The notes below the pieces were generated by a model that did no database searches, was not told where the DNA came from, and saw nothing but the letters and a program-made list of their open reading frames with translations. Positions 5,220-34,586 of a stretch of 64,000 nucleotides of DNA are shown one piece after another. The position numbers and the translations under genes are program-made. The first letter of the stretch is position 1, and each line of letters begins with the position of its first letter. This DNA comes from Streptomyces sp. V3I7 (GTDB taxonomy: Bacteria; Actinomycetota; Actinomycetes; Streptomycetales; Streptomycetaceae), in NCBI RefSeq assembly GCF_030817495.1, contig NZ_JAUSZK010000001.1:6410001-6474000 (forward strand), read 5' to 3'.

Positions 5220-5423
5220 TCAGGCGGGGACGATGTTCTCCGCCTGCGGGCCCTTCTGGCCCGGCGTGACGTCGAAGGAGACCCGCTGGCCCTCCTGGAG
5301 CTCACGGAAGCCCTGGGTGGCGATGTTCGAGTAGTGGGCGAACACGTCCGGGCCGCCGCCGTCCTGCTGGATGAAGCCGAAACCCTTTTCGGCGTTGAAC
5401 CACTTCACGGTTCCCTGAGCCAT
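5220..5423 (-). CDS. Cold-shock protein (CspA family)
   Basis: A 67-residue single cold-shock domain. RNP1 is GFGFIQQ and RNP2 is VFAHYSNI; the first residues [14 protein letters not shown] are standard for the family. It is an RNA-chaperone OB-fold protein that melts mRNA structure. ATG 5423 is chosen because GGAGAA precedes it and because all family members start at this point. The 5' leader contains a hairpin, and the downstream gene is a DEAD-box helicase, so the two form a cold-adaptation pair. Confidence 0.96.
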
Positions 5424-5479
5424 GATCTTCTCCTTCTGTAGGCAGAGGCCCCATCCGGAGATCCCGGAAAACAAATAAT

Positions 5480-5506
5480 GCGCCTGAGGACATTCCCGTC
5501 AGGCGC
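5480..5506 (-). promoter_or_regulatory. 8-bp hairpin in the cold-shock 5' leader
   Basis: GCGCCTGA (5480-5487) pairs with TCAGGCGC (5499-5506) around an 11-nt loop, 57-83 nt upstream of the csp ATG. Long structured leaders controlling temperature response are known for cspA genes elsewhere; a similar role here is inference. Confidence 0.4.
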
Positions 5507-6201
5507 ACATAGGTTCATGGGTACCACAACTGCAACACCGAGACCGTAGCACAGTTCGGCGGTCACGGTGGACGGAACCCGGTCGGACGCGGTCGGCCGC
5601 GGCCGGTGCGGTCGGCATCGGCGGCGCGGATCCCGCCGTCCCGCCCGTCGCGACGTACGCGGCCCACACGGCCTCACACCCCGTCACCGCCGGCGCGAGC
5701 CGTCAACTCCCCTCTGTGGCCGCCGACTTCGACCGCGGGGGCGCGCAAGTCGCAGGGGCGGAACGTTGCGGCGTGCCATGCGCCGCGCGGTGTTCCGCTC
5801 CTCACGAGAGCGAATGGTCCGACCTGTGGCGGGCGTCCACGGGTGTGTGACGCCGGTGGTCCGCCGCGCGAGAGGTGCTCCGTGAACCCGCCGGCAGGCC
5901 GGGCGACTTCACCGTCCGGCCGGCTTCGGCGCGTTTGCGACCGGAATCAGGGCGACGAAAAAGATTGTCGCGACGCATGGATACTACCGCCGGTTACACC
6001 GCGGACCCGATCCCGCCGTTTATGGTCCTCTGTCCCCCGGGCCCGTCACCGGATTTTCGGCGCAACTCCTCCGTGGCGCCCGCCAAGCGGAGATCCATTC
6101 ACGGTCGGAGGGGCCTTGGAAAGCGCCGCCGGCGAGGTGGCATTTCGACACGTTCAAACAGGGTCCAACCGGGCAGCGGCCATTGAAGTTGGCACGAACC
6201 G
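5507..6201. other. Gene-free intergenic region between csp and the RiPP cluster
   Basis: About 700 nt without a convincing coding region; the short open frames lack SD sites and family signatures. It must contain the csp promoter on one side and regulatory sequence for the RiPP cluster on the other. No regulator gene is present here. Confidence 0.5.
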
Positions 6202-6231
6202 TTGACGGAGTCGTCACAGCGGCTACACAAT
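6202..6231 (+). promoter_or_regulatory. Candidate vegetative-type promoter of the RiPP cluster
   Basis: TTGACG at 6202-6207 is followed 18 nt later by CACAAT (6226-6231), or 16 nt later by TACACA (6224-6229). This fits a sigma-70/HrdB-type promoter about 65 nt upstream of the first ATG. It is sequence-based only. Confidence 0.4.
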
Positions 6232-6297
6232 CCTCCCCGGTGGACGCGGGTAGCGGTGCCCCACCGTCGATATGCGCACGATCCTGCGAGGGGACAT

Positions 6298-8451
6298 ATG
6301 CAAATGATCGACAGTGCACCACTGACCGGGATAAGACCCCGCTTGCGCAACGACGTGGTTTTCCTTCGCGTCGACACCGGCATATATCTGAGAAGCTCCG
6401 AGACATCGTGTGTCCTCAAAGGCGCCGGCGCATATGAGTGGATGTCCGTCCTCGGTCCGCGAATGACGGGTGAGCACACCGTCGCGGAATTATGCGAGGG
6501 CCTGGACGACAACCGCCGCAAAACCGCCGTCGGACTGATGCGCACCCTGCTCGCCCGCGGGTTCGCCCGCGCCGTCCCCCGCCCCGACACGGGGATGCTG
6601 CCGGCCGCCGTACTGGACCGGTACGCGCCGCAGATCAACTTCGTCGAACACTTCATGCACGCGGACGAGCGGACGCCGCAGGAGCTGTTCGCCCGGTTCC
6701 GCGCCTCCCGCGTTCTCCTCAGCGGCCCGCCCGGAGGCGTCGCCGAGGCGGCCGTCCGTGGCCTGCTGCGCAACGGGCTCGCCGAGATATCCCTGGACGA
6801 CACCGCGTGGGGCGACGCGTTCGAGGCCGAGGCGGCCCGGCTCTCCGGCGCGGGCGTCCCGGCACGCGTCGTCGTGCTGCCCTCGCCCCCCGCCGAACTG
6901 GCCGACTTCGACGTCGTCGTGGCGGTCGCCGACGGCTCGGGCAGCGGCACGCTAGGCGAGTTGACCCACCGACTACGTCAACTCGCCGACGGTCCACGGC
7001 TGATCCCCGTCGTGGCCGACGCCCACCGCATGGTCGTGGGGCCGGTGTCCGGCCCCGCCGAGCAGCCGTGCTGGGTGTGCGCCCAACTGCGGCTGTCCGC
7101 CAACACCGACCCGGGGCTCATGGCCGACTTCTGGCGGGGACTTGCCGTCGGCCCGACCGGGTCCGAGGCGCCGAGCGGCAGCGCGGTGGCACAGTCCATG
7201 GTCGGCAACGCGCTCGCCTTCGAGGTCTTCCGGCTGCGCACCGGCCAGTTGCAGCCGGACGACGAACGCCACGCCGTCGTACAGGACTTGACGACCCTCG
7301 AATCCCGCCGCGAACGGGTCCTGCCCCACCCCGGATGCCCCATGCGGCACACACGAGCGCTCCCCGACACGTCCGTGCGCCCGCCCGCCGACGACAGCGA
7401 CGCCTACGGCCGCGCGGCCGTCCTGGTCTCCCCGGAGTTCGGCGTGCTGTCCGGCTGGACCGACGACGCGATCCGGCAGATCCCGCTCAAGACGGGCCGC
7501 GTACGGCTCGGCCCGGCCGGCTCCCTGGCCGACGGACCGCGCGAGATCGCCGGGTTCGACATCGACACGGTCCTCGTCGCCCGTACGCGCTCGGTGCAGG
7601 CGGCGGTGAGCTGCTACGTCGGCCGGCTCGGCCCCGTCGGACCGCCGGACGGAACACCCGCGGACGACGCCGAGACCGTCGCCGCCGAGCGACTCGACCT
7701 CTTCAGCGGCCTGCCTGAAGAGCAGGCGGCCGAACGGCAGTTGACCGCCGTGTCCCTGCACGACGGAACCCGCTGGCGGGTCCCCGCGGCCGCCGTCCAC
7801 CCGCTCTCCCCGGCCAACTCCCGCCTGGCGTACGAGCCGAGCCCCGCCGGCGCGGCGGCCGGGTGGACGACCGAGGACGTACAGGAACGCGGGCTGTGCT
7901 CGGCGCTCGCGTACCGCGGACTCCTCCGCGCGATCCGCGGCGAGGCCCCCGCCGTCCCGCTCGGCGAGGAATGGCTGGCCGGCGACGACGAGACCGCCTT
8001 CGCACTCGGCAGCCTCAGGCCCGTCGGACGGCGCGCCCGCGTCTACGCGCTGCCCGGCGCCGCACCGAGCTGCGCCGTCCTCGCCGTCGTCGAGGACGCC
8101 GACGGCACCGACGGCACCACGGTCGACTGGGCGACCGGCTCGGCCCTCTCGGTCCGCGCCGCCGTACGCCAGGCCGTGCGGGACGCCGTCGGCCTCGCGG
8201 TCGGCCGGCACTACGAAGGCGCGCCCCTGGACCCCGGGGATCCGCTGCTGGCGGACTTCGACCCCCGGGCCCTCGCCGAGGGCGACGCCAAGACCGAATG
8301 GTCCTTCGGCCAGCCGGACATGCCGATGTCCGAGGCGCTGGAGCGACTGGACGCGGAGGGCACGCGCGCGCTGTTCGTCGACACCACGACGATCGACCTG
8401 CACGCGGTCCACGGCATGGTCACAGGAACGATCCTGCTCGCTGGTAAGTAG
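6298..8451 (+). CDS. TOMM leader-peptide-binding cyclodehydratase partner (Ocin-ThiF-like)
   Basis: A 717-residue protein of the ThiF-like/Ocin partner family. It is expected to bind the precursor leader and present the core to the YcaO enzyme for Cys/Ser/Thr cyclodehydration. Residues about 10-95 look like a winged-helix RiPP recognition element. CWVC at 258-261 and a Cys in HPGCPMRH near 347 are candidate structural zinc ligands. ATG 6298 has GAGGGG 5-10 nt upstream; the longer upstream frame has no SD. Leu65 (bases 6490-6492) is encoded by TTA, so full translation should need bldA tRNA. It is the first gene of the cluster and lies directly upstream of the precursor gene. Confidence 0.82.
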   Translation: MQMIDSAPLTGIRPRLRNDVVFLRVDTGIYLRSSETSCVLKGAGAYEWMSVLGPRMTGEHTVAELCEGLDDNRRKTAVGLMRTLLARGFARAVPRPDTGMLPAAVLDRYAPQINFVEHFMHADERTPQELFARFRASRVLLSGPPGGVAEAAVRGLLRNGLAEISLDDTAWGDAFEAEAARLSGAGVPARVVVLPSPPAELADFDVVVAVADGSGSGTLGELTHRLRQLADGPRLIPVVADAHRMVVGPVSGPAEQPCWVCAQLRLSANTDPGLMADFWRGLAVGPTGSEAPSGSAVAQSMVGNALAFEVFRLRTGQLQPDDERHAVVQDLTTLESRRERVLPHPGCPMRHTRALPDTSVRPPADDSDAYGRAAVLVSPEFGVLSGWTDDAIRQIPLKTGRVRLGPAGSLADGPREIAGFDIDTVLVARTRSVQAAVSCYVGRLGPVGPPDGTPADDAETVAAERLDLFSGLPEEQAAERQLTAVSLHDGTRWRVPAAAVHPLSPANSRLAYEPSPAGAAAGWTTEDVQERGLCSALAYRGLLRAIRGEAPAVPLGEEWLAGDDETAFALGSLRPVGRRARVYALPGAAPSCAVLAVVEDADGTDGTTVDWATGSALSVRAAVRQAVRDAVGLAVGRHYEGAPLDPGDPLLADFDPRALAEGDAKTEWSFGQPDMPMSEALERLDAEGTRALFVDTTTIDLHAVHGMVTGTILLAGK

Positions 8452-8544
8452 CGGGGCAGCGAGCTGGTCCGCGCCCCCGAGGCGCGTCACGGTTCTCGGA
8501 ACACCCGTTCCGGGTGCACATCCCACCACGATGGGAGGATCACC

Positions 8545-8718
8545 ATGTCCGCTGAGCTCAAGGACGAACTGAGCGTTCTGGAGAGCGCGACGTTCGAGAT
8601 CGAGGAGATGACGGACGAGTCCGTCGAGCTGGCCTGGTCCAGCTCGTCCTGCTCCTGCTCCAGCTGCTGCTCCTGCTCCACCAGCAGCTGCTGCTCCTGC
8701 TCCACCAGCACGAGCTGA
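8545..8718 (+). CDS. RiPP precursor peptide with an all Ser/Cys/Thr core
   Basis: A 57-residue peptide preceded by GGGAGGA. The leader (about residues 1-30) is acidic, with LSVLESATFEIEEMTDES, which resembles thiopeptide and goadsporin leaders. After Trp31 the remaining 26 residues are 15 Ser, 8 Cys and 3 Thr and nothing else: SSSSCSC, then two SSCCSCST units, then STS. A perfect 24-nt tandem repeat underlies the two units. The position between the leader-binding protein and the YcaO gene makes it the obvious substrate. Cys and some Ser/Thr would become thiazoles or oxazoles, others dehydroalanine or dehydrobutyrine. The cleavage site (before or after Trp31) is a guess. Confidence 0.92.
   Translation: MSAELKDELSVLESATFEIEEMTDESVELAWSSSSCSCSSCCSCSTSSCCSCSTSTS
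8662..8709 (+). repeat. 24-nt perfect tandem duplication in the precursor core
   Basis: Bases 8662-8685 and 8686-8709 are identical, each encoding SCCSCSTS. The identity extends through synonymous positions, pointing to a recent slippage or duplication that enlarged the core. Confidence 0.95.
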
Positions 8719-8738
8719 CAGCCGGCCAAGAGTGAGAG

Positions 8739-8771
8739 ACCGGGTCGGTGGACTCCTGCCACCGGCCCGGT
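8739..8771 (+). terminator. Hairpin after the precursor gene (likely attenuator)
   Basis: ACCGGGTCGGTGG (8739-8751) pairs with CCACCGGCCCGGT (8759-8771), 13 bp with one G-U pair and a 7-nt loop. It lies 20 nt after the precursor stop. Partial termination here would give more precursor than enzyme mRNA, a common arrangement in RiPP operons. Confidence 0.75.
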
Positions 8772-8883
8772 CGTCAGGCCGGCACGTGCGGTTGCCCGGC
8801 GGACCCGTCGCCCGCGAGACGGACGGTCCCGCCGTACGACGGGGAGCCGCACACCCCCCTCTTCGAAGCGACTGGGCGGACGG

Positions 8884-10830
8884 ATGAATGTGGTGTCGAA
8901 CGCGGTGACCACCGCGGCGGTCCTGGACGAGCCCCGGGAGACCGAGGCCGTCCGCGGCTATCTGGCCGGACGTGCCGGTACCGGCGTCACGGTCGACGTC
9001 GGCGAGCTCGGCCTGCCGGCGCCCGCCGCGCCGAGCGGGGCGGGAACGGCCGAGGGACTCGTCTACCCGGTACGCCTGTACGGCCAGGCCGTGCTGCTGG
9101 GCCCCCTGCACCGCGCCGACGGCACCAGCCGGCCCTGCGGCCGCTGCCTGGAACGCCGCTGGCTGGCGCTGCGCCCCGTCGAGGAGCGCAAGCCCATCGA
9201 GGAAGGCGCCGACAGATGGGCGGCCGCTGCCTCCTCACTCACCCCCTTCGCCCTGGAACAGATCGCCCAGCTCGTCTACGCCGAGACGACGGACGCCCAA
9301 CTCGCCCCAGGTGCACGGGGGATCGGCCGGATCGTCGAACTGCGGACCGGCGACCTCACGGTCAGCCGCCACGACCTGATCGCCGACTCCGAGTGCGAGC
9401 ACTGCGCCACTCCGGTCCCCGACACCGCCGAGGCGGCGGCGCTGCCGCTGAACCCCCGGCCCAAGCCGGACCCGACCACCTACCGCGGCGCGTCCGCCGC
9501 CGACCTGACGCTGCCCACCGGCGGACTGGTGGGCGAGGTCTGCGGGGCGCTCGCGAGTGCCGCCCGCCGCGTCTACCAGTGCAGCGCGACCCTCCCCGTC
9601 AGCGGCTACTTCCGGGTGCGCAGCAAGTACGACTACCACGAGATGTGGTGGAGCGGTCAGTCACAGAGCTCGGCGAGCAGCGAGCGCTACGGCATGCTGG
9701 AGGGCCTGGAGCGCTACGCGGGCCAGTTCCCGCGCGCCAAGGACCCGAAGACGTACGGCAGTTACCGCGAGCTCGCGCCGGACGCCCTCGACCCGGCGTC
9801 GATGGGCGCGTACCGCCCGGAGTTCTACGCCGGGCACCACGACTACTACCAGCCCTACCACCCGGACGCCCCGACCCACTGGGTGTGGGGCTACTCCTTC
9901 GGCGAGCAGCGGCCGTTGCTCGTGCCCGAGCAGTTCGTCTTCTACCTCGACCGGCGCCCGGACCGGAAGTTCGTCCAGGAGTGCTCCAACGGCTGTGCCA
10001 GCGGCAGCAGTACCGAGGAGGCGCTGCTGCACGGCATGCTCGAACTCATCGAGCGCGACGCCTTCCTGCTGTGCTGGTACGGCTCCGCGAAGCTCCCCGA
10101 GATCGACCAGGCGACCGTCGTCGACGAGGAGGTCCAGTTCGTCCTCGACCGGGTCGCCCGACTCGGTTACCGGATGCGGCTGTTCGACATGCGCGTCGAC
10201 CTTCCCGTACCCGCCGTGATGGCGGTCGCCGAGCGGCTGGACGGCGGACTGGGCCGGCTGTGCTTCGCTGCCGGCGCGAGCCTCGACCCGGTGGAGGCGG
10301 TGCGCGCGGCCATCGCCGAGACCGCCTCGTACATCCCGGGCATGGACGAACGCGTGGAGGCGAAGCTCCCCGACCTGCGCGCGATGGTCACCGACTACGA
10401 CCGCGTCCACGAACTCACCCACCACGCCCTGCTCTACGGTCTCCCGGAGATGGCGTCGGTCTGCGACTTCCTGCTGGACGCGGCCCCGCCCCGGTCGATG
10501 GACGAGCTGTACGGGCCGTGGCTCGCGCAGCGCCCCGAGACCCTCGACCTGGCGGACGACGCGCGCTTCGTGATGGAGCGCCTGCGCGAGGTGGGCAGCG
10601 ACGTCGTCGCCGTGGACCAGACCTGCCCCGAGCAGGACGGCACCGGCATCCGCACGCTGAGCGTCCTGGCACCGGGACTGGTGCCGATCGACTTCGGCTG
10701 GGAGCGCCAACGTGCCCTGGAACACCCCCGGTTGAAGGCCTACCTCGACGGCGCGCTCGCCGAGATCCACTCCCGTGCGGCAGGGTTCGGACCCACCGGG
10801 CTCAACCGCCGCCCGCACCCGTTCCCGTGA
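8884..10830 (+). CDS. YcaO-domain cyclodehydratase (azoline-forming)
   Basis: A 648-residue protein. The N-terminal ~190 residues form a ThiF/E1-like remnant with two CxxC pairs (C85/C88 and C171/C174), a likely zinc site. The YcaO domain spans about 215-648 with the signature NGCASGSSTEEALLHGMLEL near 370-390. The C-terminus ends RPHPFP, the proline-rich tail that completes the active site in azoline-forming YcaO proteins. It activates backbone amides with ATP so that Cys, Ser or Thr side chains cyclise to azolines. It works with the leader-binding protein encoded two genes upstream. The start at 8884 has only a weak SD, and the upstream stretch is non-coding. Confidence 0.93.
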   Translation: MNVVSNAVTTAAVLDEPRETEAVRGYLAGRAGTGVTVDVGELGLPAPAAPSGAGTAEGLVYPVRLYGQAVLLGPLHRADGTSRPCGRCLERRWLALRPVEERKPIEEGADRWAAAASSLTPFALEQIAQLVYAETTDAQLAPGARGIGRIVELRTGDLTVSRHDLIADSECEHCATPVPDTAEAAALPLNPRPKPDPTTYRGASAADLTLPTGGLVGEVCGALASAARRVYQCSATLPVSGYFRVRSKYDYHEMWWSGQSQSSASSERYGMLEGLERYAGQFPRAKDPKTYGSYRELAPDALDPASMGAYRPEFYAGHHDYYQPYHPDAPTHWVWGYSFGEQRPLLVPEQFVFYLDRRPDRKFVQECSNGCASGSSTEEALLHGMLELIERDAFLLCWYGSAKLPEIDQATVVDEEVQFVLDRVARLGYRMRLFDMRVDLPVPAVMAVAERLDGGLGRLCFAAGASLDPVEAVRAAIAETASYIPGMDERVEAKLPDLRAMVTDYDRVHELTHHALLYGLPEMASVCDFLLDAAPPRSMDELYGPWLAQRPETLDLADDARFVMERLREVGSDVVAVDQTCPEQDGTGIRTLSVLAPGLVPIDFGWERQRALEHPRLKAYLDGALAEIHSRAAGFGPTGLNRRPHPFP

Positions 10831-10874
10831 GCCGCCCGCCGTCCCCGTCGATCCCGGCCGAAGGAGAAGACCCC

Positions 10875-12497
10875 GTGTCCGACAACCGCACGCAGGTCGT
10901 CAGCGACTATGTGGAGTCGGTGTTCCGGCGCGGCCGGGAGCCGATGGAGCCGATCGGATTCACCCCCGACTGGGCGGACCAGCCCTCCCGGCACAAGACC
11001 TACCTGGGCGTACGGCGCTTCCCCCTGCCCCCGGGGGCCGATCTGATGTCGGCGGGCGTGGCCGACGTCCTCTTCGGCGAACCCCCCGCCGGACACGGAC
11101 CTCCGTGGACCCTCGACTCGCTCGCCGCGCTGCTGCGCCTGTCGTACGGCGTCCTCGACCGCCGACTGCGGGTGAGCTGGAACCAGGACAGCCACGTCCG
11201 GGTGCTCTACCCGGAGGCGCTGTGGGGGAGGGGCACCGCCTCCGGGGGCGGGATGTACCCGCTGGAGGTGTACTGGGTGGCGGGACCGGGCGGCCCGCTC
11301 ACCCCCGGCGTCTACCACTACTCCACCGCCCACCACGGCTTCGAGCGGCTGCTCGCCGGTGACCTCACCGACGAGGTGCGCGCGGCGTGCGGAAGGGAAG
11401 CCGGTGACGCCGACGGCTACCTCGTCGTCACCGTCCGCTTCTGGAAGAACTCCTTCAAGTACAACAGCTTCTGCTACCACGTCGTCACCCAGGACTCCGG
11501 TGCCCTGCTGGGGAGTTGGGAGCTGATCGCGCGAGGGCTCGGCAGGCGGCTGACGCGCGTGCTGTGGTTCGACGACGAGCGGCTGAACGGCCTCCTCGGG
11601 CTCGACACCGCCGAGGAGTGCGCGCTGGCCGTGGTCCCGCTGCCGTGCGCCGCGCCCGCCGAGCCCAGCGCCGACCCAGACCCCGTTCACTGCGACGGCA
11701 GCACCACCGGCCTGATCGACCGGCCGAGCTTCGAGCGGTCCGCCCGCCCGCGCACCTTCGAGCAGATCGAGCAGGTGCACCAAGCCGTCCTCGCGGACCG
11801 GCGCGCCCGCCCGGACACCGAGGTCGCGGGGAGTCTCGTACCCGTGCCGCCCGCCACCGGCGAGGACATCGAACTGCCCGAGCCGCTCACCGACCGCCTG
11901 GCACCGGACCTCGCCGCCACGATCCGCTCCCGGCGGACCAGCTTCGGCTCGTTCACCCGCTCCCGCCCGCTCGGCCTCGACGAGCTCGGCACCGTCCTGG
12001 CCGGCACCGCCTCGGCGCACCGCTACGTCGCCGACGTGGTGCCGGGCGACGTCGGGCTGACGGGACTGTACGTCCTCGCCAACCGGGTCACCGGGCTGCC
12101 GAGCGGCACGTACCGCTACGACGGCACAGGCCACCGGCTGCGCGTGGTACGGGAGATGCCGCTCGCCGAGAAGCTCCAACGCGCCTACTACCTCAGCAAC
12201 TACAACCTCGAGCAGGTCGGCGCCGTCCTGGCGATCTCGGGGCGCTGGCGCAGCACCCTCGACGCCTACGGCAGCCGCGGCTACCGGGTGCTCAACTCCG
12301 AGGTGGGCGCCGTGGCGCAGACGGCCTACACGGCCGCCGCCGCGCTCGGCGTCGGCTGCGGGGCCGTCCTCGGCTTCGACAACATCGCCATCGACGAGTG
12401 GGCCGGCCTCGACGACGGCGACGAGCGCACCTTCCTCTTCGTGCTGCTCGGGCACGAACGCGCGGACAGCGCGGACTTCGACTACCGGCTGGTCTGA
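10875..12497 (+). CDS. SagB/ThcOx-type azoline dehydrogenase, tandem nitroreductase folds
   Basis: A 540-residue FMN-dependent dehydrogenase expected to oxidise azolines to thiazoles and oxazoles. Two nitroreductase-like halves are visible: residues about 60-250, with SGGGMYPLEVYWV, and about 340-535, with IRSRRTSFGSF and LNSEVGAVAQTAYTAAAALGVGCG. GTG 10875 is preceded by AAGGAGAAG, so the long upstream open frame is rejected. It follows the YcaO gene by 44 nt. Two-fold architecture is common in thiopeptide and lantibiotic-like azole clusters; which half binds FMN is not resolved here. Confidence 0.88.
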   Translation: MSDNRTQVVSDYVESVFRRGREPMEPIGFTPDWADQPSRHKTYLGVRRFPLPPGADLMSAGVADVLFGEPPAGHGPPWTLDSLAALLRLSYGVLDRRLRVSWNQDSHVRVLYPEALWGRGTASGGGMYPLEVYWVAGPGGPLTPGVYHYSTAHHGFERLLAGDLTDEVRAACGREAGDADGYLVVTVRFWKNSFKYNSFCYHVVTQDSGALLGSWELIARGLGRRLTRVLWFDDERLNGLLGLDTAEECALAVVPLPCAAPAEPSADPDPVHCDGSTTGLIDRPSFERSARPRTFEQIEQVHQAVLADRRARPDTEVAGSLVPVPPATGEDIELPEPLTDRLAPDLAATIRSRRTSFGSFTRSRPLGLDELGTVLAGTASAHRYVADVVPGDVGLTGLYVLANRVTGLPSGTYRYDGTGHRLRVVREMPLAEKLQRAYYLSNYNLEQVGAVLAISGRWRSTLDAYGSRGYRVLNSEVGAVAQTAYTAAAALGVGCGAVLGFDNIAIDEWAGLDDGDERTFLFVLLGHERADSADFDYRLV

Positions 12498-12509
12498 GAG
12501 GGCTGATCC

Positions 12510-15236
12510 GTGAACTCCAGCGCGATGCCATCGACGATGCCGGTCACGGCGTCGGCCGCGACGACCCCCACCGAGCACGCGAGGTGGAACCTCGTACCCA
12601 GGTTCATGCTGCGCGTGGCCGGGCTCCCCTTCGAGACCGCCGCCGCGCTGGTCTCACCGGCGAGCGCCGCCTGGGCGGACGGCGTGCTCGACGCGCGGCT
12701 GCGGCTGCGCGCGCGGGGCGCGGCGCTGGCCGACGCCCTCCAGGAACGCGTGGCCCACCACCTCGACGACCCGGCCGCGAGCCGGACGCTGATCAATCTG
12801 CGCCGTGACGTCTTCAACGCCCGCGCACCTCGCGGCCTCGCGGCCGCTGAGCCGCTGCTGCCGCCCGCCGAACTCGCCGAACTGCGCGGCTGGTTCGCCC
12901 AGCGGCAGCAGCTCGACGCGCTGCTGCGCACCGGCTCCGGCATCCTGGCCGACGACATCGCCTCCGGGCGCCGGGAGTTGCGTGGCGCGGCGACGGAGAC
13001 GGACCTGCGTCACGGCATCCAGCTCTCCTCCCCGTCGCTCGACGAGTACCTCGACGGCTATCTGCACCGCGCCGACGGCCCGCTCAGCAAGAAGGAGCGG
13101 CGGATCGAGCGGTCGCTGCTGGAGTACCTGCTGCGCACCGCCTGCAAGACCAGCCCGTTCAGCACCCTGACGGCCGTCTCCGCGGGCGAGTTCACCGAAG
13201 CCGGCGGCCTTCCGCTCACCGCGTCCGTCAAGGGCTGGGACAAGCGCGGCAGCACCCGGCTGAACATCGCGGTCCTCGCCCGGCTCTCCGAACTGCTGAC
13301 CGCGGATCCCGAGGTCCGCCGCGATCTGCCGGTCCGGGCCACCAGCGGGATGCAGGTGCACGGCGACCGCGTCCGCTATCTGCGCAAGCTGCGTGGCGCC
13401 GACGGCAACGCGGACGCGGCGGTCACCCTGGACGCCGTCCACGAGAGCCTGTTCTACCTGCCCAGCGGCGTCGCCCTCGCCGACGTGCTCACCCTGTTCG
13501 GCGACGACGGCACGACGACCCTGCGCTTCGGCGACGCCGTACGGCGGCTGCGCGCGCTGGACGACAGGCGCCCCGAGCCCGAAGTGGAGCGCTATCTCGC
13601 CCAGTTGCTCCGGCTCGGCCTGCTCGTCGTCCCCGACCTGCACCTCGACATCCACGACCCCGACCCGGTCGCCACCTACCGCCGCGGACTGCGGCGCCTG
13701 GGCGCGGACTGGGCCGACGACCTCGCCGCGCTCGTGGACCGCATGGGCGCGGACGTCGCCCGCTTCGCCGGAGCCGGACTGCCCCGCCGGCGTGAACTGC
13801 TGTCGCGGATCAAGGAGTCGGTGGCCGACACCCACCGCCGCCTCGGCCGCGACGACATCCCCGTCCTACGCACCCTCGTCTACGAGGACACCACCCTGCC
13901 GGGCCTCAAGGCGACCGGCGACGCCGACACCTGGGACCGGCACATCACCCCCGGGCTGGAGCAACTCACCCGGATCCTCCCGGCGTTCGACGGAAACGCC
14001 GTCCGCAGACTCGTCACCAAGGGATTCTTCCGGGCGCGCTACGGCACCGGCGGCCGCTGCGACGACTTCCTCTCCTTCGCCCACCAGTTCAACCAGGACT
14101 TCTACGACAACTACAACCAGCGCCTGATGCGCCACCAGCGCTTCGACGGCACCGAGTTCCGCACCTACGACAACTGGTTCCGCCAGGACGAGATCGCCGG
14201 CATCGACCGCGCCCGGCGCACGGTGGCCCAGGAGATGCGGCTCCGGTACGAGAGCGCCGCCGAGAGAGGCGGCGACCTGGAACTGGACGAGGACTTCCTT
14301 ACCGCCGTGGAACGGGAGTTGCCGCGAGCGGAGGACCTGCGCTCGCTGTCGTTCTTCCTCCAGGTCGCCGAGAACGGCACCGAGGACCCGCTCGTCGTCG
14401 TCAACCGGATCTACTCCGGACTCACCCTGCTCTTCTCCCGGTTCGCCCACTGCCTCGACGACGGACTCACCGCCTCCCTGCGCCGCTCGCTGGCCGACGC
14501 CGTCCCCGAGGGAGCCGTCTTCGCCGAGCTCAAGGGCGGCTACGACGCGACCAACCTCAACCTGCACCCGTTCGTCACCCCGTACGAGATCGTCTGCCCC
14601 GGCGAGACCAGCTTCCGCCCGGCCCGGGAACGGATCCCGGTGGAGGATCTGATCGTCGAGCACGACCCGGCGGGCGACCGGCTGCGCCTGCGCTCCCGGC
14701 GGCTCGGCGTCGAGGTGATCCCCGTCTACCTCGGCTTCCTGCTGCCGATGGCGCTGCCCGAGCTGCAGCAGGTGCTGCTGAACTTCTCCTGCACCACCAT
14801 GGTCCAGCTCGACCTGTGGGAGGGCACCGGCGTCCAGGAGGCCGCCGGCGGCGCGCTGCCCCGCGTACGGCTCGGCAACGTCGTGCTCCAGCGCCGCTCC
14901 TGGAGGTTCACCCCCGACCAGCTCCCGCCGGCGGTGGCCCGGCAGAGCGACGAGGAGTGGTTCCTGGCCTGGCGGGAGTGGCAGCGGGCCGCCGGACTGC
15001 CGCGCCATGTGTTCGCAAGCCTCGGCGGCGAACACAAGCCGCAGTACGTCGACTTCGACTCGTACATGTGCGTCCGGCTGCTGGAGACCGCGGTCCGCAA
15101 GAGTGACGCGGCGGTAGTGCTCACCGAGATGCTGCCCGGCCCCGACGACCTGTGGCTGAGAGACGGTCCGCACCGGTACGTCACCGAACTCACGGTCCAG
15201 CTCGACGGCGTCAACGGAACGGATACGGAGCGGTGA
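12510..15236 (+). CDS. LanB-type dehydratase, glutamylation (N-terminal) protein
   Basis: A 908-residue protein matching the Lant_dehydr_N (tRNA-dependent glutamylation) part of class I lanthipeptide dehydratases, without the C-terminal elimination domain. Typical family segments are visible: KKERRIERSLLEYLLRTACKTSPFSTL near residue 190-215 and FNQDFYDNYNQRLM near 530. It should transfer Glu from Glu-tRNA to core Ser/Thr. GTG 12510 has GAGAGGG upstream. It overlaps the next gene by one base (TGATG), so the two dehydratase halves are made together, as with TbtB/TbtC in thiomuracin and GodF/GodG in goadsporin. Confidence 0.92.
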   Translation: MNSSAMPSTMPVTASAATTPTEHARWNLVPRFMLRVAGLPFETAAALVSPASAAWADGVLDARLRLRARGAALADALQERVAHHLDDPAASRTLINLRRDVFNARAPRGLAAAEPLLPPAELAELRGWFAQRQQLDALLRTGSGILADDIASGRRELRGAATETDLRHGIQLSSPSLDEYLDGYLHRADGPLSKKERRIERSLLEYLLRTACKTSPFSTLTAVSAGEFTEAGGLPLTASVKGWDKRGSTRLNIAVLARLSELLTADPEVRRDLPVRATSGMQVHGDRVRYLRKLRGADGNADAAVTLDAVHESLFYLPSGVALADVLTLFGDDGTTTLRFGDAVRRLRALDDRRPEPEVERYLAQLLRLGLLVVPDLHLDIHDPDPVATYRRGLRRLGADWADDLAALVDRMGADVARFAGAGLPRRRELLSRIKESVADTHRRLGRDDIPVLRTLVYEDTTLPGLKATGDADTWDRHITPGLEQLTRILPAFDGNAVRRLVTKGFFRARYGTGGRCDDFLSFAHQFNQDFYDNYNQRLMRHQRFDGTEFRTYDNWFRQDEIAGIDRARRTVAQEMRLRYESAAERGGDLELDEDFLTAVERELPRAEDLRSLSFFLQVAENGTEDPLVVVNRIYSGLTLLFSRFAHCLDDGLTASLRRSLADAVPEGAVFAELKGGYDATNLNLHPFVTPYEIVCPGETSFRPARERIPVEDLIVEHDPAGDRLRLRSRRLGVEVIPVYLGFLLPMALPELQQVLLNFSCTTMVQLDLWEGTGVQEAAGGALPRVRLGNVVLQRRSWRFTPDQLPPAVARQSDEEWFLAWREWQRAAGLPRHVFASLGGEHKPQYVDFDSYMCVRLLETAVRKSDAAVVLTEMLPGPDDLWLRDGPHRYVTELTVQLDGVNGTDTER

Positions 15237-16312
15237 TGGACGGCATGAACGGCAAACGAGACACGCACGACGGTGGCTGCGTCGAGGCGGATCCGGGCGA
15301 CGACGACCACTGGATCAGCCTGCACGTCTTCTACGCCGCGAACGCCAACCCGGTGCTCGTGCACTGCGTGCGGCCGCTCGTGGCCCACTTGAGCGAACAG
15401 GGCCTGCTGCGCTCCTGGTTCTTCATCCGCTACTGGCTGGATGGCCCGCACATCCGGGTGCGCCTGCTGCCCGCCGACGCCTCGGCGGCCGCCGAGGTCG
15501 AACGCACCGCCCGGCAGGCCCTTCAGGACTACCTGCGCGTGCGCCCCGCCCTCTACGAGGAGGACCGCAACGCCAGCGGCGACCTGTACAAGAACATGTT
15601 CCTCGCCGAGTACAGCGAGGAGCGGTGGGACGAACTCTACGGCGCCGAAGGGGAGATGCCCTTCAGGGACAACAACAGCGTCGCCGCCCTCGCCTACGAA
15701 CGTGAACTGGACCGCTACGGAGGCCCCGCCGGCATGGAACTGGCCGAGTGGCACTTCCGGCACTCCAGCGAGACGGTGATCACGCTGCTGGAGACCACCA
15801 ACGTCCACGTCCGCACCGTCCTGCTCGGCCAGGCCGCCCAGTTGACGGCCGGACTCTGCTTCACCCTGCTGCCCGACGAGGAGGCGGTGACCCGCTTCCT
15901 CCAGCGCTACCGCACCATGTGGGAGACGTCGTACCAGGAGCCCAGCGACGCCCAGCACGAGCGCTTCGACCGCAGCTACGCCCGCATGAAGGACCGCCTG
16001 GTCCCGCGCCTGAGGCACGTGCGCGACAGCGCCCGCGGCGATACGGCCGCCTCACCCACCCCGCTGGAGCGGTCCTGGCTCGCCCACTGCGCCGAACTGC
16101 GCGACCGCGTCCTGAAGTCGGCCGACGACGGACTCCTGTGCTTCCGCGACGGCGCCGTACCGGAGCCGCAGGACGCCCTCGCCATCGTGCTCAGCTCCTA
16201 CGTCCACATGACCAACAACCGCCTCGGCGTGAGCATCCTCGACGAGATCTACCTCTCCTACGTCCTGTGCAAGGCGCTGACCGACCTGGCCCCACAAGAG
16301 GCGCTGCGGTGA
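15236..16312 (+). CDS. Thiopeptide-type SpaB_C elimination protein
   Basis: A 358-residue protein of the SpaB_C family. The opening WISLHVFYAANANPVLVHCV and the segment SWFFIRYWLDGPHIRVRL are diagnostic. In split dehydratases this protein removes glutamate from glutamylated Ser/Thr to give dehydroalanine or dehydrobutyrine. Related paralogues instead catalyse the [4+2] pyridine-forming step in thiopeptides. Only one SpaB_C protein is present, and the neighbouring glutamylation protein needs an elimination partner, so elimination is the more likely job. ATG 15236 overlaps the upstream stop, and its own stop overlaps the next GTG. Confidence 0.88.
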   Translation: MDGMNGKRDTHDGGCVEADPGDDDHWISLHVFYAANANPVLVHCVRPLVAHLSEQGLLRSWFFIRYWLDGPHIRVRLLPADASAAAEVERTARQALQDYLRVRPALYEEDRNASGDLYKNMFLAEYSEERWDELYGAEGEMPFRDNNSVAALAYERELDRYGGPAGMELAEWHFRHSSETVITLLETTNVHVRTVLLGQAAQLTAGLCFTLLPDEEAVTRFLQRYRTMWETSYQEPSDAQHERFDRSYARMKDRLVPRLRHVRDSARGDTAASPTPLERSWLAHCAELRDRVLKSADDGLLCFRDGAVPEPQDALAIVLSSYVHMTNNRLGVSILDEIYLSYVLCKALTDLAPQEALR

Positions 16313-17568
16313 CCGGGACGGCCAACGGGGCCGACACGTCGTACGACCGGCCCCGCCTGCGGCCCGACGTCGTCCTCGGTCCCGCCCTGCGCTCCGGCCC
16401 GAAGACCGTGCACCACGTCAAGGACGCGCGCACCGGCTGCTACTACCGCGTCGGCCCCCGCGAGTACTTCGTCATGGGCCTGATGGACGGCAGCCACACC
16501 CTCGACGACATCGGCCGCAAGTACACCGACACCTACGAGCGCCGGCTCGGCCCCGCGCACTGGCAGCAGATGTTCACCATGCTCGGCCGCTACCAGCTCC
16601 TCGACGGCCACACCGACGACGCCGTCCTCGACAAGCTCCGGCAGGCGCACGAGTCCCAACAGGCCGCGCGGCAGGGCCTGTTGCGCCGCCGCTGGGTGAT
16701 CCTGCGCCCCGACCGCCTGTGCGCCGCCCTCGCCGCACGACTCGCGTTCGCCTTCCACCCCGCCTTCCTCGTCCCGGCGTTCCTCCTGCTCGCCGCCGTC
16801 CAGGTCTTCGTCTGGACGCACCTCGGTACCCTCAGCCAGGAGGCGACGCACCAGCGGTCCTGGGCGATCACCCTGCCCCTGTCGATGACGCTGCTCTGGG
16901 GCATCACCGTGCTGCACGAACTCGCCCACGGCGTGACCTGCCGCCACTTCGGCGGCACCGTCACCGAGATCGGACTGAGCTGGCGCTTCCCGATGCTCAC
17001 CCCCTACTGCCGCACCGACGACATCATGCTGTTCCACCGGCGCAGGGCCCGCGTGGGCACCGCCTTCGCCGGCGTCTTCGTCAGCCTGCTCGCCCTCGTC
17101 CCGGTGCTGGCCTGGTGGTATCTCGCCGGCGACGGCGGGATCGGCAGGCCGCCCGCGGCCGGACTCCTGCTGTTCGGCAGCGGCGCGGCCGTGATCAACC
17201 TGCTGCCGGTCCTGCGCTCGGACGGATACATGATGCTCACCCACGCGCTGGACATCGCCGACCTGCGCCGCGAGTCCTACCGCTTCTGGCGCCTGCGCCT
17301 GCGCCGCCGCGACCCCGCCGCCCGCGAACGGCTCGACGCCTACCCGCCCCGCGACGCCCGCGCCTACGCGCTCTACGGCGTCACCTCGCTGCTCCTGCTC
17401 CTGCTCGCCTACGGCGGACTGATGTGGGTCTGGTTCAGCACCCTGCGGCGCTGGGTAGGGCCGGTGTGGGCGGTGGTGATCCTCGCCGCGGAGACCGCCC
17501 TGGTGGCGGCCATCCTGTCCCTGGCCGCACGCGGCCGCGACGCAGAACGGCGGACCGCCGATGCCTGA
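16309..17568 (+). CDS. M50-family membrane metalloprotease with PqqD-like N-terminal domain
   Basis: A 419-residue multi-pass protein. Residues about 15-105 (YYRVGPREYFVMGLMDGSHTLDDIGRKY onward) resemble a PqqD/RRE-like winged helix. The membrane part follows from about residue 140, with the zinc motif HELAHG (about 204-209) and a later NLLPVLRSDGYMM segment that supplies the third ligand Asp, as in site-2 protease relatives. It is a good candidate for leader removal or coupling cleavage to export. GTG 16309 overlaps the upstream stop (GTGA), and the end overlaps the ABC gene by 8 nt, so it belongs to the cluster. It could also act in self-protection. Confidence 0.85.
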   Translation: MTGTANGADTSYDRPRLRPDVVLGPALRSGPKTVHHVKDARTGCYYRVGPREYFVMGLMDGSHTLDDIGRKYTDTYERRLGPAHWQQMFTMLGRYQLLDGHTDDAVLDKLRQAHESQQAARQGLLRRRWVILRPDRLCAALAARLAFAFHPAFLVPAFLLLAAVQVFVWTHLGTLSQEATHQRSWAITLPLSMTLLWGITVLHELAHGVTCRHFGGTVTEIGLSWRFPMLTPYCRTDDIMLFHRRRARVGTAFAGVFVSLLALVPVLAWWYLAGDGGIGRPPAAGLLLFGSGAAVINLLPVLRSDGYMMLTHALDIADLRRESYRFWRLRLRRRDPAARERLDAYPPRDARAYALYGVTSLLLLLLAYGGLMWVWFSTLRRWVGPVWAVVILAAETALVAAILSLAARGRDAERRTADA

Positions 17569-18556
17569 ACGCACCGACACGAGCGAACGCACCGACACGA
17601 GCAGCACCGACAACAGCGACGACTTGGTGATCCGCACCAGCGGACTCACCAAGAAGTACGCACCCGACACCGGCGTCTTCGACCTCGCCCTGCGGGTGCG
17701 CCGCGGCGAGGTCTACGGCTTCCTCGGCCCCAACGGCTCCGGCAAGAGCACCACCATGCGCATGCTGGTCGGACTCATCCGCCCCACCTCCGGCACCGCC
17801 ACCGTCCTCGGCCACCCGGCCGGGACCCGCCCCAGCCTGCGCGGAGTCGGCGCCCTCATCGAGGCCCCGGCCCTCTACCCGCACCTCTCCGGGCGGGACA
17901 ACCTGCGCGTCCTCGCCGGATACGCCTGCGTACCCGCCGCCCGCGTCGGCGAGACGCTGGCGGAGGTGGGCCTGACCGCCAAGGCCGACGTCGCCTTCCG
18001 CGCGTACTCCCTCGGCATGAAACAGCGCCTCGCCGTCGCCGCCGCCCTGCTCAAGGACCCCGAACTGCTCATCCTCGACGAGCCGACCAACGGCCTCGAC
18101 CCCGAGGGCATGGCGAGCATGCGCGACCTCATCGACAGCCTGCGCCGCGCCCACCGCACCGTCCTGCTCTCCAGCCACCTCCTGTCCGAGGTGGAGCACC
18201 TCTGCGACCGCGTGGGGGTGATCCGCCGGGGCCGGCTGATCGCCGAGGGCACCGTCGCCGAGCTGCGCCGCAACGTCGGCGAGAGCGGACTGGCGCTGAG
18301 CGTGGACGCGCCCGAGCGCGCCGCCGAGCTCCTGCGGACGCTGCCGGAGGTCCGCTCGGCGACGGTCGTCGACGGACAGCTGCGCGTGGGCGCCGACCCG
18401 CGCGAGGCCGCCGCCGTCAACCGGTATCTCGTGGTGAACGGCGTCCAGGTCAGCGAACTGCGCAGGAACGTCCTCTCCCTGGAGGACGTGTTCCTCGACC
18501 TGGTCGAGGACGAACGGCCGGCCGGGACGGAACCCGTGGAGGTGATGGGCGGTTGA
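17561..18556 (+). CDS. ABC transporter ATP-binding protein (RiPP export/immunity)
   Basis: A 331-residue ATPase: Walker A GPNGSGKST (about residues 58-66), a degenerate ABC signature around RAYSLGMKQRLAVAAALL, and Walker B LLILDEPTNGLDPEG. The C-terminal ~80 residues match the extension of drug/bacteriocin-type ATPases (CcmA-like). It pairs with the permease encoded next and would export the mature peptide or confer self-resistance. The start overlaps the protease gene by 8 nt. Confidence 0.93.
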   Translation: MPERTDTSERTDTSSTDNSDDLVIRTSGLTKKYAPDTGVFDLALRVRRGEVYGFLGPNGSGKSTTMRMLVGLIRPTSGTATVLGHPAGTRPSLRGVGALIEAPALYPHLSGRDNLRVLAGYACVPAARVGETLAEVGLTAKADVAFRAYSLGMKQRLAVAAALLKDPELLILDEPTNGLDPEGMASMRDLIDSLRRAHRTVLLSSHLLSEVEHLCDRVGVIRRGRLIAEGTVAELRRNVGESGLALSVDAPERAAELLRTLPEVRSATVVDGQLRVGADPREAAAVNRYLVVNGVQVSELRRNVLSLEDVFLDLVEDERPAGTEPVEVMGG

Positions 18557-19398
18557 ACGGCGTCCTTCAGGCAGAGCTGCTGGCGACCCGCAAGCGTCCC
18601 GGCGTGTGGATCGTCGGCGGGGCCTGGGCCGGGCTCGCGGTGGCGTTCGGCATGGTGGTGCCGTACATCGTCTGGCTGGCCGTCAGGAACCACCCGACCG
18701 GCTCCTCCGGCGACCCCGAGAAGCTGATCAGCGGCCTGCTCCCGGACAGGTTCCTGTCCGGCACCGTGGACCTGTACCCGATGTTCGGCAGCGCCCTGAT
18801 GCTGATCCTCGGCGCGGTCCTCGTCGGCGGCGAGTACCGCTGGGAGACCTGGGGCACCCTGCTGGTCCAGGGCCCCGGCCGCGGCAGCGCCGTCCTCGGC
18901 AAGGCCGCCGCGACCGCGGTGGCTGTCCTGTGCATCACCGTGCTCGTGCTCGCCGCGAGCGCCGGGGCGAGCGCCCTCGTCGCCGCGGTCACCGGCCGGT
19001 CCGCGCCCTGGCCGGACGCGGCGACCCTGCTCGGCGGCGTCGGCGCCGTCTGGCTGATCAGCATGGCCGCGGCCAGTGTCGGCATCCTCCTGTCGATCCT
19101 GCTGCGCGGTACCGGACCCGCCATCGGCGTCGGCCTGCTGTGGCTGCTCGCCGTGGAGAACCTGGTCACCGGGCTCGCGGGCACCCTGCCCGCGCTGAAG
19201 GGCGTCCAGCGGCTGCTGATCGGCCCGAGCGCGGGCTCCCTCGCCACGGCCCTCGACCCGTCGGGCAAGCCCAACGCCTCGGTCCCCGGGGTCGTTTCGG
19301 TCTCCGGCCCGCTGACGGCGAGCCTGGTGCTCGCGGCGTACGTCGTGGTGTGCCTCGCGGTGTCCTCCGCGCTCGTCTCGCGCCGCGACGTGAGCTGA
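18553..19398 (+). CDS. ABC transporter permease (ABC-2 type)
   Basis: A 281-residue membrane protein with about six helices, partner of the ATPase upstream. The start codon is TTG at 18553, overlapping the upstream stop as TTGA. It is supported by a near-perfect SD (GGAGGTGA at about 18538-18545) 8 nt away. It is the last gene of the cluster; the next gene has its own SD after a 100-nt gap and an unrelated family. Confidence 0.85.
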   Translation: MNGVLQAELLATRKRPGVWIVGGAWAGLAVAFGMVVPYIVWLAVRNHPTGSSGDPEKLISGLLPDRFLSGTVDLYPMFGSALMLILGAVLVGGEYRWETWGTLLVQGPGRGSAVLGKAAATAVAVLCITVLVLAASAGASALVAAVTGRSAPWPDAATLLGGVGAVWLISMAAASVGILLSILLRGTGPAIGVGLLWLLAVENLVTGLAGTLPALKGVQRLLIGPSAGSLATALDPSGKPNASVPGVVSVSGPLTASLVLAAYVVVCLAVSSALVSRRDVS

Positions 19399-19497
19399 GG
19401 GTCCGGCCGGCAGGGCACGCGTAACACTCCTGGCGCGCGCCGCGATGTGCGCACCGTCGGTCCGGACCGGGCCGACGCCACACCACCAGGAGGTCAC

Positions 19498-20139
19498 ATG
19501 CCGGCCGCGACGCGGACCCTGCCGCCCCTCGGCGACCAAGCGGACCGACTGATCGAACTCGGCGTCCACGAGAGCGCCGGCCTACGCCCCACCGAACTGC
19601 GCTCCCTGGCCGCGGGCGCCGGAACCCGCGAGGGCCTCCTCGTGATCCACCCGGACCGGGCCCCGGCGTCGGCCCTCGCACCCCTGCTCCGACACCAGGA
19701 CAAGCCCGGCTTCGTCGTGGAGGACATGACCGACGTCGACGACTTCGCGCCCCTCGACACCGTCAAGGTCCCCGAGGACCCGGCGTACGTGCTTCAGGAC
19801 GTGGACCGCGGCGACGAGATGGCCGACTGGAGCCCCGACGAGGCCCTGCCCGCCCTCACCGGCGCGGGCCGGACCCCGCTGCTCCTGACGGAGGGCATCC
19901 ACTGGCTCCTCCAGCGCCCCGACGTCCTCGAACGGGGCCACTGCTTCATGACCATCGGCTCGCGCGTACGCAAGCCCGACGGCACTCTCGACGCCCGTAC
20001 CCCCGCGCTCTGGATCAGCAACGGCACCGGACGCGACGGCCGCGAGCGCCGCAACGCCCCCAAGGTCGGCTGGTGTTGGGCCGGCAACCGGCACACCTGG
20101 CTCGGCTTCGCCTCGGCGGCCGCGCGCTGCGCCCTGTGA
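19498..20139 (+). CDS. DUF5701 family protein
   Basis: A 213-residue conserved actinobacterial protein. Strong family segments include KPGFVVEDMTDVDDFAP, DVDRGDEMADWSPDEALPAL and GRTPLLLTEGIHWLL. No function is established. ATG 19498 has AGGAGGTCAC directly upstream, a near-ideal SD. It is adjacent to, but probably not part of, the RiPP cluster. Confidence 0.85.
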   Translation: MPAATRTLPPLGDQADRLIELGVHESAGLRPTELRSLAAGAGTREGLLVIHPDRAPASALAPLLRHQDKPGFVVEDMTDVDDFAPLDTVKVPEDPAYVLQDVDRGDEMADWSPDEALPALTGAGRTPLLLTEGIHWLLQRPDVLERGHCFMTIGSRVRKPDGTLDARTPALWISNGTGRDGRERRNAPKVGWCWAGNRHTWLGFASAAARCAL

Positions 20140-28039: not shown

Positions 28040-29037
28040 GCGCGGCCCCGCGCGTCCGGGAACGTGTACTCGGCGAGACGGGGACGGTAGCCGAGATGGA
28101 CCAGCGCGCCCGCGGCGCTCAGCAGGATCAGCGCGCAGGCCATGGTCGCCGGGGAACTCGCGGCCGCGTCCCGGGGCAGGTGGTACGTGTCGCTGTGGAC
28201 CAGCAGGCCGGTCCCGACGGCGACCCCGGTGGTGATCAGCAGCGCGGCGGCGAGACAGGGACTCGGGTAGCGGCGGAAGTGCCGGGCGACGACGTACCCC
28301 GTGGCGAGGACCAGACCCAGCAGGACGGCCACCGGGACGAGCAGCAGGGACCAGACGAGCACCGGGTCGAGCCAGCCCGACCCGCGCAGCCGGGTGAGCG
28401 CGCTCTGCTGGAGGTCCTCGAGATCGATCAGGGACTCTGTCAGACCGCCCGTGCCCCGGATCGGCCCCTCCTCACCCTCGAAGCCAACTCCACGGGCTCG
28501 CTTGGCAGTCAGGGCCGCACGGGCGATGCCCATGCCCGCCTCCTTCGTACGGTCGTAGTCCCGCACCGCCGTGTCCGCGAGCCGTACGCAGGTGGTCAAC
28601 TGGCCCTGGACGAACTGGAACTCGATGAGCCCCTCCCTGCCCGCCGCGTTCCCCTCGGCCGCCTGGGTCACCCAACTGCTCACGCGAGCGGTCGCGTTGG
28701 TGAACCGGCTGCCCGTCCCGATCAACGGCACCTGCCGCGAGGCGACCGCCTCCGCGAGGGCCTGGTCCGCCCGCACCGCCTCCGCACGGGCCTGCTCGAC
28801 GTCCTCGACGGCCTCGTGCGCACAGCGCGCGGCGGCCACCTGGCGGTCCGCCTCCACGGAGACCAGCAGGTACATGAGCGCCGTCACGAGCACCATCACC
28901 ACCGTCCCCGCGCGCAGCGCCCGCAGCACCGCCACCGGATGCGCCCCGCGCAGCCGCCGCGCACGCCACCGGGCCGTCGTCGCCGCGGTCGTCCCCGTGG
29001 CCGCCGTCGCACGAGTCAGGGAGCCGGGACCGCTCAC
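28036..29037 (-). CDS. Multi-pass membrane protein with large extracytoplasmic loop
   Basis: A 333-residue protein of no recognised family. One helix near residues 40-60 (AGTVVMVLVTALMYLLVSV) precedes a ~150-residue Ala/Glu/Arg-rich loop, then three helices follow (about 232-256, 268-290, 300-320). GTG 29037 overlaps the vWA stop as GTGA, and its stop overlaps the lipoprotein start as ATGA, so it is locked into the operon. It may anchor the lipoprotein or relay its signal to the cytoplasmic kinase and protease (inference). Confidence 0.75.
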   Translation of the reverse strand: MSGPGSLTRATAATGTTAATTARWRARRLRGAHPVAVLRALRAGTVVMVLVTALMYLLVSVEADRQVAAARCAHEAVEDVEQARAEAVRADQALAEAVASRQVPLIGTGSRFTNATARVSSWVTQAAEGNAAGREGLIEFQFVQGQLTTCVRLADTAVRDYDRTKEAGMGIARAALTAKRARGVGFEGEEGPIRGTGGLTESLIDLEDLQQSALTRLRGSGWLDPVLVWSLLLVPVAVLLGLVLATGYVVARHFRRYPSPCLAAALLITTGVAVGTGLLVHSDTYHLPRDAAASSPATMACALILLSAAGALVHLGYRPRLAEYTFPDARGRA

Positions 29038-34572: not shown

Positions 34573-34586
34573 GTACCCACGGTAGT

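Follow-up and report, generated by a model that had tools for sequence, protein, structure and literature searches.

A Streptomyces precursor peptide with a core made only of serine, cysteine and threonine, probably matured into a linear dehydro-polyazole RiPP

We describe a gene of Streptomyces sp. V3I7 that most probably (we estimate a probability of about 0.7) encodes the precursor of a linear dehydro-polyazole RiPP, i.e., a product that is not macrocyclised through a pyridine. The sequence evidence consists of the precursor, a complete set of modifying enzymes, and a single LanB-C protein (the elimination half of a split LanB dehydratase) of the eliminase type, while no TbtD-family pyridine synthase was found in the genome or, by profile, in the close loci defined below. 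We rate the system as a goadsporin-like linear use of thiopeptide-type enzymes, to which an S2P-like protease and a wholly modifiable, frozen core have been added. All coordinates refer to the window, the whole stretch of 64,000 nucleotides that was analysed.

The precursor gene is located at 8545..8718 on the forward strand, with a ribosome-binding-like GGGAGG upstream of its ATG. Its translation is MSAELKDELSVLESATFEIEEMTDESVELAW, followed by SSSSCSCSSCCSCSTSSCCSCSTSTS and a stop codon, giving a peptide of 57 amino acids that we divide into a leader (residues 1-31) and a core (residues 32-57; 8638..8715) based on the translation, on 116 relatives and on the core columns. Translation and counting confirmed the claim of the initial annotation that all residues past Trp31 (26 of 26) are Ser (15), Cys (8) or Thr (3), and the unit SSCCSCST occurs twice, as core residues 8-15 and 16-23. 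Across the window's six reading frames, every other run of these three residues stops at 9 or fewer, and at the S/C/T fraction of the eight cluster proteins (0.121) a run of 26 would be expected at about 1e-24 per site, so that the run cannot be attributed to chance.

The operon (6202-19398) contains, in this order, the genes for the F protein, the precursor, YcaO, SagB, LanB-N, LanB-C, an M50 protease, an ABC ATPase and an ABC permease, all on the forward strand; the YcaO, dehydrogenase and split dehydratase that had been named at the outset are thus all present by profile matches. The TOMM F-type, ocin-ThiF-like protein (6202..8451, 6202 being the first of several candidate starts) has a predicted role in leader binding and matches TIGR03882 with 55.3 bits (cut-off 36.9) and TIGR03693 with 78.2 bits, under the cut-off of 561.9. 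Its YcaO-like C-terminal part (residues 514-742) matches PF02624 with 33.5-35.7 bits (cut-off 25.7). The fused C/D YcaO cyclodehydratase (8884..10830; TIGR03604 298 bits, cut-off 219.25; TIGR03882 90.9; PF02624 269.8) ends in PHPFP. A C-terminal PxPxP is typical of azoline-forming YcaO proteins, and it was present in 60 of the 64 YcaO homologues from the loci. The following genes encode a SagB-family dehydrogenase with two nitroreductase-like halves (10827..12497; TIGR03605 163.6 bits, cut-off 78.4; PF00881 52.1), a LanB glutamylation half of the TbtB/GodF type (12510..15236; PF04738 169.3 bits), for which two solved relatives were found (TbtB, 6ec7, 105.4 bits, and GodF, 9jhq, 58.7 bits), and a LanB elimination half of the TbtC/GodG type (15236..16312; PF14028 167.5 bits), whose start was placed at 15236 because its relatives are about 354 amino acids long.

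The next gene (16309..17568) encodes a membrane zinc metalloprotease of the daptide/S2P type with the motifs HELAH ... NLLPVLRSDG, which by its sequence is the probable leader peptidase and which gave matches below cut-off to PF02163 and PF11667. An intramembrane site-2 protease with an N-terminal RRE is described for daptides (PMC10036551), and the M50 protein matches NF041824 over nearly its full length (residues 16-408); the score of 138.9 bits, however, misses the cut-off of 300, and no other daptide feature occurs among the scanned cluster proteins. The last two genes encode an ABC transporter ATP-binding protein (17561..18556), predicted to act in export or self-protection, with matches to PF00005, to PF13732 (DrrA C-terminal domain) and, both under cut-off, to TIGR03740 (222.6 bits) and TIGR01188 (221.4 bits), and an ABC-2 type permease (18553..19398), with weak matches to PF12679/PF12730 under cut-off, whose gene overlaps the ATPase gene by 4 bases.

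From the YcaO gene onward, the genes overlap or are 12 bases apart. The gap between the precursor and YcaO genes holds a stem-loop (8719..8800, forward strand) with an MFE of -51.7 kcal/mol and a z of -4.58, 0 of 200 shuffles being as stable, and no T-run terminator was found in 5400-9000. The hairpin is a possible attenuator or processing hairpin, and it might favour the formation of more precursor than enzyme. On the same strand, a DUF5701 gene (19447-20139) starts 48 bases past the permease gene. Elsewhere in the window, adjoining genes for a VWA protein, a PknG-like kinase, a trypsin-like protein and a GNAT protein (29034-35782, reverse strand) look like a signalling or conflict module, and a 1748-aa protein with a NACHT domain (40140-45386, reverse strand) is a possible defence or signalling ATPase.

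In the biosynthetic scheme that we propose, the F protein and YcaO would bind the leader and convert the core Cys (8) and Thr (3) into azolines, which SagB would oxidise to thiazoles and methyloxazoles. The split LanB would glutamylate Ser and then eliminate it to dehydroalanine, azoles coming first and dehydration second in this cluster, and the nine Ser directly before Cys or Thr would most likely be the first to be dehydrated. The S2P-like protease would separate the core from the leader, with a cut assumed after Trp31, and the ABC pair would export the product or may protect the cell. Dehydroalanines and azoles would be expected to alternate along most of the product, which would keep few or no free side chains. 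Its simplest form would combine 9 dehydroalanines with 11 azoles, giving a neutral mass of 2068.324 for a cut after Trp31; the upper prediction would be 13 dehydroalanines, corresponding to all 13 Ser-only columns, besides the 11 azoles (neutral mass 1996.282).

Azole formation is reported to precede dehydration in thiopeptides and goadsporin (PMC10676384). When the azole enzymes were left out, GodF yielded no glutamylated product, and peptides with Ala in place of either azole residue beside a goadsporin dehydroalanine were no longer substrates (PMC5303826). The carnazolamide dehydratase is described as processing only Ser preceding an azole, and dehydroalanine before an azole has precedents in both goadsporin (PMC5303826) and carnazolamide (PMC10676384). 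As the initial annotation had proposed, the peptide is a RiPP precursor, encoded in a complete azole-plus-dehydration operon, and the comparative data support the dense product that it had envisaged, in the form of an azole/dehydroalanine peptide.

One search found 116 relatives of the precursor at E <=0.01, one of which (P0002) may stand for the window's own cluster. A run of at least 24 S/C/T residues is present in 95 of the 116, an uninterrupted terminal S/C/T core of at least 24 in 20 and the identical core in five, others finishing with a short tail, for example SSCG or GCGGG. Searching the GTDB species genomes with two patterns yielded 172 stretches, 163 of which encode a relative; 80 were kept, and they are not all of the same family, since the last ones reach 27-30% identity. 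Enough flank was available for 57 of these loci (23 were without), and a recognisable precursor was found in 44 of the 57. In each of the 25 close loci, defined by a LanB-C protein of at least 500 bits plus enough flank, we detected F, YcaO, SagB, LanB-N, M50, at least one precursor and one LanB-C protein, with one precursor in 4 loci, two in 4, three in 15 and four in 2. Precursors with the same core (at most 9 differences) numbered 84 in 36 of the 80 loci, the other 44 giving none close enough. The suggestion of a product outside the known families is not supported as it was put, since the peptide has company in the 116 relatives, the 84 same-core precursors in 36 of 80 loci, and the thiazolylpeptide models passed by six of ten hand-picked relatives.

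Most hosts are actinobacteria (Streptomyces, Micromonospora, Actinomadura, Kribbella, Jiangella, Saccharothrix and others), the closest named LanB-C relatives being from Streptomyces; a precursor named as Ktedonobacteraceae (P0080) has most of the core. The A1 profile matched at least five of 396 phylum genomes, all five of the same genus and including the genome studied here, a figure that is not used as a prevalence because the first pass scores no more than 16 candidates per genome. A protein search within the genus matched 13 of 101 genomes including our own, the other 12 weakly (23.9-28 bits). Many of the loci L019-L037 (Micromonospora, Phytoactinopolyspora, Kribbella and others) have two to four tandem precursors of distinct conserved core types, which suggests a multi-component product. 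More distantly related loci from Streptomyces, Kitasatospora, Nocardiopsis and Catenulispora (L048, L050, L051, L055, L057, L059-L061 and L070) encode an additional YcaO and S/C/T-rich cores of a different kind, GSSTSCSSTSTCSSTTSTTSCTA among them, some lying on the opposite strand; these nine loci are a second branch of the family.

The core is more conserved than the leader. In an alignment of 59 hand-chosen precursors out of 117, the mean pairwise identity was 0.87 for the core (33-56) versus 0.50 for the aligned leader (8-31). The frozen state of the core suggests that the product has a single, fixed target or shape. Cores could be aligned for 111 of the 117 precursors (query included), the other six differing at more than 9 positions or carrying a long tail. 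Ser was found in 111 of 111 sequences at core columns 2, 4, 6, 8, 9, 12, 14 and 16, and in 106, 107, 101, 106 and 103 of them at columns 3, 17, 20, 22 and 24. Column 15 was always Thr (111/111) and column 13 Cys (110/111). Cys and Thr shared column 5 (101 Cys, 10 Thr, no Ser), column 7 (79 Cys, 32 Thr, no Ser) and column 10 (108 Cys, 2 Thr, 1 Ser). At columns 1, 11, 21, 23 and 25, Ser occurs beside Cys or Thr, column 11 exchanging Cys with Ser and not with Thr. From these sequences we read two chemical classes in the core, a Ser-only class and a Cys/Thr class that is less strict in five columns, and the pattern would fit two fates, with Ser going to dehydroalanine and Cys/Thr to azoles. This split is not clean, since columns 1, 11, 21, 23 and 25 also take Ser, and Thr could give dehydrobutyrine and some Ser oxazoles.

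Codons were compared on the DNA of the 84 precursors from the 36 loci. A switch between TCN and AGY Ser codons by single bases passes through Cys or Thr, whereas the change from Cys to Thr takes two base changes, with Ser as the one-step neighbour of both. At column 12, TCN and AGY were equally frequent (42 each) and no other residue occurred, column 6 had 44 TCN, 39 AGY and one Ala, and the TCN/AGY ratio was 8/76 at column 14 and 77/7 at column 16. Ser was nearly missing from the Cys/Thr columns (1 of 84 at column 5, 0 of 84 at column 7). Exceptions in the Ser columns were single (Cys at 3, Ala at 4, Ala at 6 and Thr at 8), and the end of the core held further ones (9 Gly at column 20, 17 Thr at 22 and 6 Cys at 24). 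Kinship inflates such counts of relatives, the effective sample sizes being about 42 and about 15. In the locus set, a single paralogue type, from 20 loci, accounts for every Thr at column 5 (20) and for 20 of the 24 Thr at column 7. On a quick LanB-C tree, the state of one precursor type (29 loci) changed at least seven times at column 21 and at least twice at column 7.

These data bear on the most credible of the alternatives, a true polyazole of the cytolysin or telomestatin kind in which most Ser would also become oxazoles and the dehydratase would act on few residues. YcaO enzymes can act on Ser, the telomestatin core CTTSSSSS being converted to five oxazoles (PMC5469769), and CcaB is described as not chemoselective (PMC10676384). 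The eight Ser columns, however, took neither Cys nor Thr in 111 sequences (in the locus set, one Thr in 84, at column 8), TCN and AGY replaced each other in most of these columns despite Cys or Thr as one-base intermediates, and the split LanB was present in 25 of the 25 close loci, so that we regard such a polyazole as unlikely.

Thiopeptides carry two LanB-C-like proteins, an eliminase and a pyridine synthase. In an ordinary thiopeptide two dehydroalanines are joined into a pyridine and the leader is expelled with it, and the cluster resembles those of thiopeptides (pyritides, e.g., thiomuracin, TbtA-G) in its F protein, fused YcaO, dehydrogenase and split LanB, TbtB being the best solved relative of the glutamylation half and TbtD that of the LanB-C protein. 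The NCBI precursor models for "thiazolylpeptide-type bacteriocin" also reach relatives: precursor P0001 matched neither TIGR03892 nor NF033400, and six of ten hand-picked relatives exceeded a cut-off, while Pfam gave only chance matches on 59 precursors. The cluster differs from thiopeptides in that no TbtD-family synthase was found, an S2P-like protease is present and the core holds S, C and T only. The only PF14028 match in the whole genome (99.84% complete) is the LanB-C protein of the cluster, and a single LanB-C protein was encoded in 56 of the 57 flanked loci. The exception is L088; a weak second LanB-C protein was also seen in L065, outside the 57, and the two matches in L076 belong to a single broken gene read in overlapping frames. 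In L088 and L065, the second protein has Tyr at the key position discussed below, so both loci may be true thiopeptide clusters; both fall outside the 25 close loci.

The window's LanB-C protein scored 100 bits on the pyridine synthase model NF045556, of 325 needed. In a control with this model on 150 genomes of the genus, six exceeded the cut-off (396-482 bits), each with an adjoining second LanB-C match at 52-102.5 bits, and the profile of the window's family detected both LanB-C proteins in these six loci. The score of 100 bits is thus in the range of the control eliminases and not in that of TbtD, although this score alone is not decisive, because several of the 150 genomes had matches of 101-190 bits that were under the cut-off and left unclassified. 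His324 of the LanB-C protein corresponds to NisB His961. His occupied this position in all 28 aligned members of the family (a hand-picked spread over the best 120 of at least 694 relatives at 1e-10, the 7999 best candidates having been scored) and in all six TbtC-like eliminase partners, as opposed to Tyr in all six TbtD synthases, and precursor nisin stays undehydrated with NisB H961A (PMC4341554).

An M50 relative was present in 25 of 25 close loci and in none of the six control loci (16-20 kb); a further control locus, L110, with a TbtD match of 190 bits under the cut-off and left out of the six, had one LanB-C and no M50. HExxH was found in 60 of 60 M50 proteins and both motifs in 54, the misses being variants (L011-L013) and short ORFs (L018, L046 and L058). 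The leader of thiopeptides is removed during ring formation (PMC10885120); here the S2P-like protease probably frees the leader in place of pyridine formation. With one LanB-C protein, the eliminase His and no TbtD-family synthase found in the genome, we rejected the thiopeptide macrocycle, which we consider clearly improbable, although a pyridine could still be made by an enzyme of another family.

Lanthionine rings, formed from dehydroalanines and Cys, are more improbable still. The core is rich in Cys, LanB halves are present and the genome has a LanC-like gene (contig C1:5400513-5401382, reverse strand). That gene, however, is about 1 Mb away, the scanned cluster proteins included no LanC, YcaO and SagB occur in 25 of 25 close loci, and Cys exchanges with Thr, which is incapable of forming a thioether, so this candidate was also rejected. 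That the gene is a spurious ORF or a simple-repeat expansion, as its few Ser, Cys and Thr codons, its internal repeat and similar short stretches elsewhere in the genome might suggest, is hardly conceivable and was rejected, because relatives conserve most residues of the core with different codons, Ser switching between TCN and AGY in many columns, and because precursors sit between the F and YcaO genes among the close loci listed.

The reading as a linear dehydro-polyazole can be set against several known systems. Goadsporin has a length of 19 residues. It is likewise made with a YcaO, a dehydrogenase and a split LanB without a pyridine synthase (PMC4603692, PMC5303826), but it carries six azoles and two dehydroalanines, and its cluster is described as having an acetyltransferase and a peptidase-ABC fusion, whereas the present cluster has a separate protease and exporter and 26 of 26 modifiable core residues. 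A GodH-type N-acetyltransferase and a GodB-type peptidase-ABC fusion were not among the scanned cluster proteins (6202-19398). Spongiicolazolicins, linear azole peptides with dehydroalanine, were set aside as the product by comparison with their description, as they have 28-29 residues and are described as containing tripeptide blocks with an unmodified residue. The dehydrazole carnazolamide is a peptide of 30 residues with 8 azoles and 8 dehydro amino acids, the dehydro residues standing before azoles as proposed here (PMC10676384). Dehydrazoles differ in using a LanM-type DUF4135 dehydratase instead of a split LanB, and Pfam (E <=0.01) showed no DUF4135 LanMbC dehydratase among the cluster proteins.

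Coryneazolisins, by their description, also have azole genes together with LanB-like ones but no [4+2] enzyme, and a core of nearly only C, S and T (10 residues, then Ile, then 5-7) (PMC4603692). The Ile, which the present core does not have, sets them apart. They use two D proteins, and the cluster here encodes one full YcaO plus the YcaO-like end of the F protein, which exceeds the PF02624 cut-off. Cytolysins are a near-precedent for an all-C/S/T core (PMC4603692), and the telomestatin core consists solely of these residues (PMC5469769); telomestatin, on the other hand, is described as macrocyclic, with 8 residues and azol(in)es only, and the excerpted text on it mentions no LanB-type dehydratase. 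An all-S/C/T core as such has thus been preceded by that of telomestatin, while the length of this all-modifiable core is still unmatched and no characterised product was found. The searched literature text, without figures and supplements, contained no paper with this core and no product of the family.

Because relatives occur in many bacteria and no known product was found, an unusually heavily modified natural product may await isolation. Going further, we tentatively consider that the family could be a class of linear RiPPs that is widespread but has gone unrecognised and whose cores consist of modifiable residues throughout, a view that is possible while the balance is slightly against it. 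Over their 26 residues, such products would carry 9-13 dehydroalanines and about 11 azoles in a strict sequence, and practically no side chain would stay unmodified. In actinobacteria and in a ktedonobacterial relative, leaders and enzymes would diverge around a frozen core, and the two to four paralogous precursors often found per cluster may act together. If this class is real, many entries labelled "thiazolylpeptide-type bacteriocin" would be linear rigid oligomers and not thiopeptides. The product would have more backbone modifications per residue than goadsporin with its six azoles and two dehydroalanines, and more than carnazolamide, with 18 reported on 30 residues (PMC10676384). It would also show how one YcaO and one dehydratase share a core of which nearly all residues are possible substrates of both. 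Overall, if true, a database label would be corrected and chemists would gain a conserved family of compounds with predicted masses.
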